Positions 52,975 to 54,140 of a DNA stretch of 64,000 bases are shown in pieces. The position numbers were made by a program, and so were the translations under genes. The notes under the pieces were generated by a model that was not told where the DNA came from, ran no database searches, and was given only the letters and a program-made list of their open reading frames with translations. The stretch is from positions 30,038-94,037 of the forward strand of contig MKWA01000025.1 in the NCBI GenBank assembly GCA_001899285.1, in the 5' to 3' direction. Source of the DNA: Rhizobiales bacterium 64-17. Its GTDB lineage: Bacteria > Pseudomonadota > Alphaproteobacteria > Rhizobiales > Xanthobacteraceae. Position 1 is the first letter of the stretch. Each line of letters opens with the position of its first letter.

Positions 52975-53499
52975 CTAGTGCGCGCTCTGCTCGAAGGCGG
53001 CGCGCAGCAGCCCGAGCTGATGGCTCACCGGACTGACCACCGGCGAATGCTCCGTCTGCGCTGCATTGTGCAGAGTCGCATCGAAGCGCCGCACCTTGGT
53101 CTGAAGATCATTGGCACGTGCGATCAGATTCTGTAGCCGCTCTGGCAGCAATTCCATCAGATGCGATTCCAGCTTCTCGCCGCCGGCAAACTTGACCTTG
53201 TGCTTTTCCTTGTTGGCTTGCGCCAGCGACATCTCGCCCTCACGCACCGCCCGATGCAGCAACAGCCAGGAGGCAAGTTGCATCAACCGCGTGGTCAGCC
53301 GCATGCTTTCGGTCGCATAGGCGAGCGCCGCGGTGCGGTCGAGAAGCTTGGCTTCCTTGCGGCCCGGTCCGTCGAGATAGCCGGCGGTCTCCTCGACCAG
53401 CGCCATGCCGTCGCGGAACATGTCAGAAAACGCCGGCGAATTGGCCAGACGCTCGCTGAACGACACAGGCGCGCTGTGTTGCAAAGACTTCTCGAACAT
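52975..53499 (-). CDS. rcdA: protease adaptor RcdA family protein (DUF1465)
   Basis: 174 residues. FRDGMALVEETAGYLDGPGRKEAKLLDRTAALAYATESMRLTTRLMQLASWLLLHRAV is the conserved helical core (residues 28-85); residues 86-174 are charged and probably flexible. In Caulobacter RcdA is an adaptor in the CpdR-RcdA-PopA hierarchy that delivers CtrA and other proteins to ClpXP. I start at the ATG at 53499 (MFEKSLQ); an in-frame ATG at 53532 is less likely. The nearby CtrA-type box and candidate small RNA make this neighbourhood of interest. Confidence 0.85.
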   Translation of the reverse strand: MFEKSLQHSAPVSFSERLANSPAFSDMFRDGMALVEETAGYLDGPGRKEAKLLDRTAALAYATESMRLTTRLMQLASWLLLHRAVREGEMSLAQANKEKHKVKFAGGEKLESHLMELLPERLQNLIARANDLQTKVRRFDATLHNAAQTEHSPVVSPVSHQLGLLRAAFEQSAH

Positions 53500-53635
53500 G
53501 CCGGTATGCCCCACCCGCCACTCATTTACCAATCGTTTACGACGTGAGGATGGCTGGCGGCGCGGCGGCTGTCCAGAACTGGCCTGCGGTTATGGTTGCC
53601 AGCGCCAAGTTTTGCCCCAAAACGAGACAACATGG

Positions 53636-53735
53636 TTAAAAAAAGAGCCGCCGAAAGCGGCGGCTCAGTTGATAACAGGGAGGCGTCAAACAGAGTGGAC
53701 AGGAGCCACTCACGTCCACGAAGATGGACCTCATG
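53636..53735 (-). ncRNA. candidate small RNA with anti-Shine-Dalgarno motifs
   Basis: Read on the minus strand, hairpins GTCCA/TGGAC and GAGTGG/CCACTC (loop CTCCTGT), a single-stranded CCTCCC, and a terminator hairpin GAGCCGCCG/CGGCGGCTC followed by T7 follow in that order. C/U-rich loops complementary to ribosome-binding sites are typical of alphaproteobacterial regulatory RNAs. A TTAA-N7-TTAA box lies 20 nt upstream. The same stretch also has a 32-codon ATG-to-TAA frame (53636-53734) with no ribosome site. The length and start are estimates; no transcript evidence is available. Confidence 0.6.
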
Positions 53736-53753
53736 ATTAATGATCGAGAAACA

Positions 53754-53768
53754 TTAACGACGCGTTAA
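53754..53768. promoter_or_regulatory. CtrA-type box TTAA-N7-TTAA
   Basis: TTAACGACGCGTTAA is a perfect TTAA-N7-TTAA and is itself a dyad (TTAACG/CGTTAA). It lies 33 nt downstream of the DUF1192 stop and upstream of the candidate small RNA, at a distance fitting the -35 position of a CtrA-controlled promoter on the minus strand. Chance occurrence is possible. Confidence 0.6.
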
Positions 53769-53800
53769 GTCGAATTTTATCGATCAAATGGGCGTTTTAT

Positions 53801-53995
53801 TCACTTCTTGAAAAACAGATCCGCCGCCGTGCGCGACGCGCCTTTGCGTGCCGCATCGGCTTCGAGACGCGCGATTTCATCCTTCAGCGCGGCGATCCTT
53901 TCGCTGAGTTCAGACGCTGACAACAGCGAGAGATCCTGTCCGATCTCGTGCACGATTTTTTTCTTCGGCCGATCGTCGTCATCACTGGCAGCCAT
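53801..53995 (-). CDS. DUF1192 family protein
   Basis: 64 residues. An acidic N-terminus (MAASDDDDRPKKKIVHEIGQ) is followed by LSLLSASELSERIAALKDEIARLEADAARKG, a short coiled coil, matching the DUF1192 family. Function is unknown. The longer frame to 54010 has no better start. It is on the same strand as rcdA, with the CtrA-type box and candidate RNA between them. Confidence 0.85.
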   Translation of the reverse strand: MAASDDDDRPKKKIVHEIGQDLSLLSASELSERIAALKDEIARLEADAARKGASRTAADLFFKK

Positions 53996-54140
53996 GACAC
54001 CTCGCAACAATCACATCCTCGGCACTGAAGATTTCCGTTGCATGTTAGTCATGCCCCGCCGGGTTGTCACACCGGAAGGAGCGGACTAAGACTGCGGCAT
54101 CCAATCCCATTTGATCGTGACGAACCGCAAAGGACAGCCG

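Follow-up and report, generated by a model that had tools for sequence, protein, structure and literature searches.

In Alphaproteobacteria, the cell cycle is governed by the master regulator CtrA. To our knowledge, the RNA outputs of CtrA are little known beyond Caulobacter, where CcnA is the example. An sRNA of Bradyrhizobium japonicum, BjrC1505, was reportedly shown by Madhugiri et al. in 2012 to be expressed, as seen on Northern blots, and its level is said to be lower in nodules. For rcdA, the text of Brilli et al. accessible to us names RcdA among the genes with conserved CtrA control, on the basis of predicted sites (PMC2877005). In Sinorhizobium meliloti, the accessible part of a ChIP-seq study states that CtrA occupies the rcdA promoter, that depletion of CtrA leaves rcdA unaffected, and that the ChIP fragments were about 300 bp on average (PMC4433202). 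In this study, the spacer between rcdA and a DUF1192 gene in a 64 kb window (the whole stretch of DNA that was analysed) was compared with these systems.

The features of the locus are listed in Table 1. The first-pass annotation of this DNA had read the spacer as a candidate sRNA gene, and the minus-strand elements that it named (the box, the -10-like element, two hairpins, CCTCCC and the terminator with T7) were all found there. The sequence from 53638 to 53775 on the minus strand matched Rfam RF02356 (BjrC1505) over model positions 1-140 of 140 with 104.8 bits (cut-off 50), and this was the one match in its own genome. The predicted fold of the 94-nt RNA was -36.9 kcal/mol, compared with -23.0 kcal/mol for shuffled sequences (z = -4.7), and none of 200 shuffles was as good. 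With the covariation described below, these results bear out the sRNA gene. Judged from the sequence, the sRNA is real but belongs to a family already catalogued, Rfam BjrC1505, so that as an RNA it had been described before. CCTCCC had been called single-stranded; the sequence is there, but a weak third hairpin may enclose it in its loop. TTAA-N7-TTAA occurs once in the window, while dinucleotide shuffles average 0.01 occurrences, and the strand label of the box has no meaning because the box is palindromic. The downstream gene product belongs to DUF1465, which we take to be the RcdA family. The single RcdA with 98% identity to it comes from a Pseudolabrys MAG, which places the window in Pseudolabrys or near it. 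The same genome also encodes a homologue of CtrA, with 81% identity over 121 residues. Elsewhere in the window lies a 6S RNA (RF00013; 30253-30408, minus strand, 85.5 bits).

Table 1. Positions of the sRNA locus and its flanking genes in the window.
Feature	Position	Strand	Remarks
CtrA-type box TTAACGCGTCGTTAA (TTAA-N7-TTAA)	53754..53768	-	perfect
-10-like element ATTAAT (family consensus ATTACT)	53736..53741	-	12 nt past box
Predicted sRNA transcript	53638..53731	-	about 92-94 nt; 5' end predicted from the -10 element
Hairpin 1, GUCCA...UGGAC	53714..53729	-	
Hairpin 2, GAGUGGCUCCUGUCCACUC, loop with CUCCU	53693..53711	-	
Linker UGUUUGACGCCUCCCUGUUAUCAACU	53667..53692	-	candidate anti-Shine-Dalgarno CCUCCC at 53683-53678
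Intrinsic terminator	53638..53666	-	9 pairs (53666-53645), then T7 to 53638
rcdA (DUF1465)	52975..53532	-	downstream of sRNA; PF07323, E 5.8e-54; start codon uncertain
DUF1192 gene	53801..54010	-	upstream of sRNA; PF06698, E 3.2e-22

Covariation, which the first-pass annotation had proposed to look for, supported both hairpins and the terminator. In an alignment of 67 sequences with 20 pairs, 96.5% of the cells were paired and 13 of the 20 pairs showed two-sided changes. Pairing fell to 36-54% once the partner was slid, and none of 500 shuffles reached any of five measures. The two helices of hairpin 1 had 96.2% and 96.8% of cells paired (two-sided changes in 4/6 pairs), hairpin 2 had 97.4% (3/6 pairs) and the terminator stem 95.8% (6/8 pairs). 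In the linker, each base of the core GUUUGACGCCUCCCUGU was invariant or at least 90% conserved in the same sequences, and the 3' part was variable. A covariance model, R1, was built from the sequence that follows the box with an alignment that includes the window sequence, and gave 105 bits on the window over 53637-53750. In S. meliloti, Shinella and related loci, a stem of the UCAGAC...GUCUGA type stands in place of hairpin 2, and the box, CUCCCUGUU and the terminator are retained. Three loci (L151, L152 and L154) scored 43-46 bits with R1 and fell below the cut-off with the Rfam model (27-32 bits); L151 is the S. meliloti RNA between DUF1192 and rcdA, with 43.1 bits from R1 and a sub-cut-off 27.2 bits from Rfam. 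The record that carries L151, CP090106.1, is labelled as the S. meliloti plasmid pSymB, and is probably a chromosome under a wrong label, because it is 3.7 Mb long and carries rcdA and rpmE.

The same alignment bears on a small peptide gene, which had been suggested as the alternative content of the spacer. An open reading frame of 32 codons at 53636-53734 was confirmed, and 107 of 172 loci had a frame of 25 codons or more. However, the open frames differed from locus to locus, an ATG stood at the start codon of the window's frame in only 2 of the 67 aligned sequences, and the distance between the hairpins and the length of hairpin 2 varied across all three frames. The open stretch thus exists, but the peptide reading was rejected because neither the start codon nor the reading frame is kept, and we give it almost no chance.

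Conservation of the promoter was scored as the best match to the eight bases of TTAA-N7-TTAA within the 65-nt stretch upstream of the RNA, with the window's locus included. At least seven of the eight bases were matched in 162 of the 167 loci whose upstream DNA was long enough (8/8 in 98, 7/8 in 64 and fewer in 5). Some of these loci had been found via the Rfam model, in which the box region is included, with a site picker that gave a small bonus to the box. The controls reached this level in 4.4% of shuffled stretches and 1.8% of random stretches from the same loci. Without the bonus no site shifted, and adding L055 gave 162/168. In the loci selected by rcdA, the box was present at this level in 78 of 79 scored loci, compared with 4.2% of shuffles; 79 of 84 such loci could be scored, the others being excluded for a short flank (two) or because they were not located (three). 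In 170 box-anchored loci, the -10 consensus was A 81%, T 71%, T 59%, A 77%, C 59% and T 73%, at a constant consensus spacing of 12 nt from the box. GANTC (CcrM) sites near the box were depleted (8 of 170 loci, 20.3 in shuffles). The box-free model R1 was also applied to 289 genomes of the class, where 26 genomes outside the order contributed loci, all with at least 36.5 bits; G411, G480 and G591 had similar scores and were left out of this set. In a phylum sample of 150 used for calibration, five genomes outside the class matched R1 at E <= 0.001, the best with 30.5 bits, and the weaker of the 90 genomes matched in the class search were therefore not trusted. Outside the order, 20 of the 26 loci had the box with at least seven of eight bases (shuffled 9.3%, random windows 2.2%), and in three of the six others (L342, L345 and L347) a box was seen by eye just beyond the scanned stretch. 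The box noted in the first-pass annotation is thus conserved, and the sRNA promoter looks like one that carries a strongly conserved CtrA-type box, a candidate CtrA site.

The box could instead be a plain AT-rich promoter element or the site of a regulator other than CtrA. The base following the second half-site was G in 78% of 170 loci, which departs from the S. meliloti consensus TAA-N7-TTAAC given in the accessible text of PMC3616915. On the other hand, two half-sites are kept at a spacing fixed at 7 nt, the forms outside the order include TTAACCTTTTGTTAAC and TTAACCATTCGTTATC, and the accessible text on S. meliloti reports a CtrA ChIP signal in the region (PMC4433202). From these observations, we regard a non-CtrA origin of the box as rather unlikely.

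The hairpins, linker and terminator of the window RNA are common to the Rfam model of BjrC1505, and model positions 1 to about 45 correspond to the box and the -10 element of the window locus. Rfam consensus positions 8-22 (UUuACggccuAUUaa) are the CtrA-type box. The pairs that Rfam draws within positions 1-43 had 47.9% of cells paired in 170 loci taken at fixed offsets from the box, compared with 29-41% when slid, and 63.5% compared with 20-52% in nine high-scoring loci taken as Bradyrhizobium-like. Because the pairing of 47.9%, which is above the slides, lies far under the 96.5% of the transcript helices, positions 1-45 of RF02356 are probably promoter DNA inside an RNA family model.

The spread of the RNA was examined in 297 genomes of the order. 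RF02356 matched at E <= 0.001 in 245 of them and above the cut-off in 212, and rcdA was found in 265. Both were present in 238 genomes, rcdA only in 27, the sRNA only in 7 and neither in 25, which gives an odds ratio of 31 (Fisher) from a tally made by eye that ignores shared ancestry. Six of the seven genomes with the sRNA only were above the Rfam cut-off, and G050 was below it (42.3 bits). These genomes without rcdA retained the box: of their 8 loci, 7 had at least 7 of 8 bases by script, and the box of L168 was seen by eye. In some of the 27 genomes with rcdA only, the sRNA may have diverged rather than being absent. Seven such loci (L176-L182) were inspected for a diverged sRNA with R1; L176 gave 42.9 bits, and L177 and L178 gave 24.2 bits, matches that are tentative because they lie below the best control match of the R1 phylum sample. 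The R1 search found no sRNA in L180, L181 and L182, and L179 ends too near rcdA to judge. L181 (G269) has rcdA and DUF1192 without the sRNA, and a 7-of-8 box TTAAGCTTTCGGTAA lies ahead of rcdA, a pattern that would fit loss of the sRNA and retention of a box.

The gene order was also kept. Among 84 loci selected by rcdA (the best 80 of 227 rcdA matches and 4 others, a choice by which the window's relatives are over-represented), the sRNA lay upstream of rcdA on the same strand in 83, of which 81 were found by script and L061 and L153 by the covariance model; L055, where no sRNA was found, was the sole exception. The spacer comparison suggested in the first-pass annotation thus found the RNA kept between the two genes. 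Among 90 loci selected by Rfam (29 top-scoring, 40 chosen to cover families and 21 further), rcdA lay downstream on the same strand in 80, and eight of the ten others came from the seven genomes without rcdA, which were fetched for that reason. In 143 of 171 loci, a same-strand DUF1192 gene lay upstream within 1 kb. In the 26 loci outside the order, rcdA was downstream in 12 and DUF1192 upstream in 11 on the same strand (at L330, 862 nt off). Copy number varied in places: L337, outside the order, has two tandem copies (19-129 and 208-328), and G541, G334, G346 and G576 each have three matches, some of them weak.

This arrangement can also be read with the box as a distal rcdA promoter and the hairpin RNA as an attenuated leader of rcdA, from which read-through would now and then yield rcdA mRNA. 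The two lie on the same strand, and the median distance from the terminator end to the rcdA match was 190 nt in 162 loci. The conserved CtrA control of rcdA predicted from sites (PMC2877005), and multiple start sites with a possible CtrA site at agrobacterial rcdA in the accessible text of PMC10469942, would fit such a leader. However, the terminator between the box and rcdA is strong and its stem is conserved, a near-invariant linker is unexpected in a mere attenuator, and the RNA and its box are kept in seven genomes (8 loci) without rcdA. An attenuated leader is accordingly unlikely in our view, and a separate sRNA with its own promoter is preferred.

A second box with at least seven of eight bases was present between the terminator and rcdA in 30 of 158 loci (10 perfect), compared with 3.6% in shuffles. 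A CtrA-type box thus stands at the sRNA nearly everywhere examined, and some lineages have a separate one for rcdA. S. meliloti is one example: L151 has the sRNA box at 2701-2715 and, ahead of rcdA, a second perfect box at 2875-2889 (TTAACCCTTTCTTAA). The CtrA binding without an effect on rcdA, described in the accessible text for S. meliloti (PMC4433202), could in part be that of the sRNA promoter. The ChIP peak is not assignable to the sRNA alone because of the second perfect box between the terminator and rcdA, and since the fragments are about 300 bp and the boxes about 175 bp apart, we offer this account of the puzzle as a hypothesis.

The first-pass annotation had further suggested an undescribed feedback loop, from a CtrA-driven RNA beside rcdA. 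In the form considered here, the sRNA would pair with rcdA or ctrA mRNA and tune CtrA, as CcnA does in Caulobacter. The tight linkage to rcdA in the Rfam-selected loci and the joint presence across the 297 genomes agree with this idea, and according to the accessible text CcnA is a CtrA-controlled RNA that acts on the ctrA and gcrA leaders (PMC8959179). In the window, the linker was predicted to pair with rcdA at an internal ATG with -20.1 kcal/mol, within the 9 best of 323 control ORFs, which were called mechanically and some of which are surely not genes. However, in 162 loci the predicted pairing of the linker with rcdA leaders showed no gain over shuffled leaders (-19.8 and -19.7 kcal/mol). 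At the ctrA ribosome site (-30 to +3) the predicted mean for the linker was -14.1 kcal/mol, and none of the 30 orthologues covered, out of 40 loci, reached -20 or lower. The mean was -13.2 kcal/mol in the 154 control ORFs whose Shine-Dalgarno score was 5 or more, of which 8 reached -20 or lower (9 of all 323). The mean pairing at either place was thus not clearly above the control, and the RNA persists without rcdA in the seven genomes described above. These results do not support the loop, which we consider very unlikely.

Other partners of the linker were searched by complementarity. In its own genome, no excess of linker-complementary 15-mers with up to 3 mismatches was detected (81, the sRNA gene included, compared with 93 when the pattern was reversed). 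Across the family (41 genomes), AACAGGGAGGC-N2-8-ATG gave 21 matches in 17 genomes, compared with 2 for the reversed control, an excess that is largely expected, as for any ribosome site. Among these matches, a CBS-domain gene and a TctC-type transporter gene (labels read from sequence) each occurred in two genomes. The CBS-domain orthologues found in 30 of the 41 genomes reached -20 kcal/mol or lower in 11 cases, compared with 8 of the 154 control ORFs, or in 10 of 29 without the window genome's own gene, which had originally been chosen for its pairing. S. meliloti, Shinella and Methylobacterium do not share this pairing, and the CBS-domain gene is therefore only a weak target candidate within the window's family. 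As the first-pass annotation had pointed out, an exposed C-rich stretch would suit pairing with ribosome-binding sites, and from the anatomy we infer pairing of CCUCCC to Shine-Dalgarno sequences as the mode of action.

Taken together, we propose the following model. Phosphorylated CtrA would bind the TTAA-N7-TTAA box across the -35 region and activate an RNA of about 92 nt, the trans-acting BjrC1505 sRNA. As this RNA would stop at its own terminator, the box would serve the sRNA rather than rcdA by read-through. The RNA would display CUCCU and CCUCCC, and repress several mRNAs through pairing at their Shine-Dalgarno sites. We consider this model likely as a whole, and CtrA binding and activation, the position of the 5' end and the pairing are its predicted steps. 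Since the sRNA is real and its box is kept in many relatives, BjrC1505 is probably an overlooked output of CtrA cell-cycle control, as far as genome comparison can tell. A broader version, in which BjrC1505 is a general CtrA-output sRNA of the Alphaproteobacteria, in and beyond the window's order, and many boxes credited to rcdA are its promoter, seems to us evenly balanced. If it is true, the CtrA-occupied but unresponsive rcdA of S. meliloti would be partly explained, with the sRNA terminator insulating rcdA. More generally, an sRNA with such deep conservation and a CtrA box of its own would offer one RNA to delete across several model species. It would also change how CtrA boxes and additional start sites ahead of rcdA are interpreted, and allow Rfam to trim promoter DNA from the BjrC1505 model. 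The CtrA link can be tested at once where CtrA and start-site data exist.

In the literature searched, from which subscription papers were mostly absent, no published link between BjrC1505 and CtrA was found. The sRNA family is known and ordinary as an annotation, and the new point is the link to CtrA. Like the window RNA, MmgR/suhB (RF00519) and SorY (RF02651) have a CUCCCU stretch ahead of the terminator, but the window RNA scored only 23 bits with the former (cut-off 41) and 25 bits with the latter (cut-off 111). The comparisons with cell-cycle sRNAs that follow rest on the accessible portions of the cited papers. EcpR1 (PMC4414408) and GspR (PMC5928217) of Sinorhizobium are sRNAs of cell-cycle mRNAs; EcpR1 adjoins divK-pleD and GspR lies between SMc03844 and SMc03845, whereas the BjrC1505-like RNA of S. 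meliloti is located elsewhere, between DUF1192 and rcdA. CcnA of Caulobacter crescentus and the window RNA are both alphaproteobacterial RNAs linked to CtrA, the former by CtrA control (PMC8959179) and the latter by its predicted box. CcnA, however, sits at the replication origin and targets the ctrA and gcrA leaders (PMC8959179), while the window RNA sits beside rcdA and its predicted pairing with the ctrA leader stays at the level of the control.
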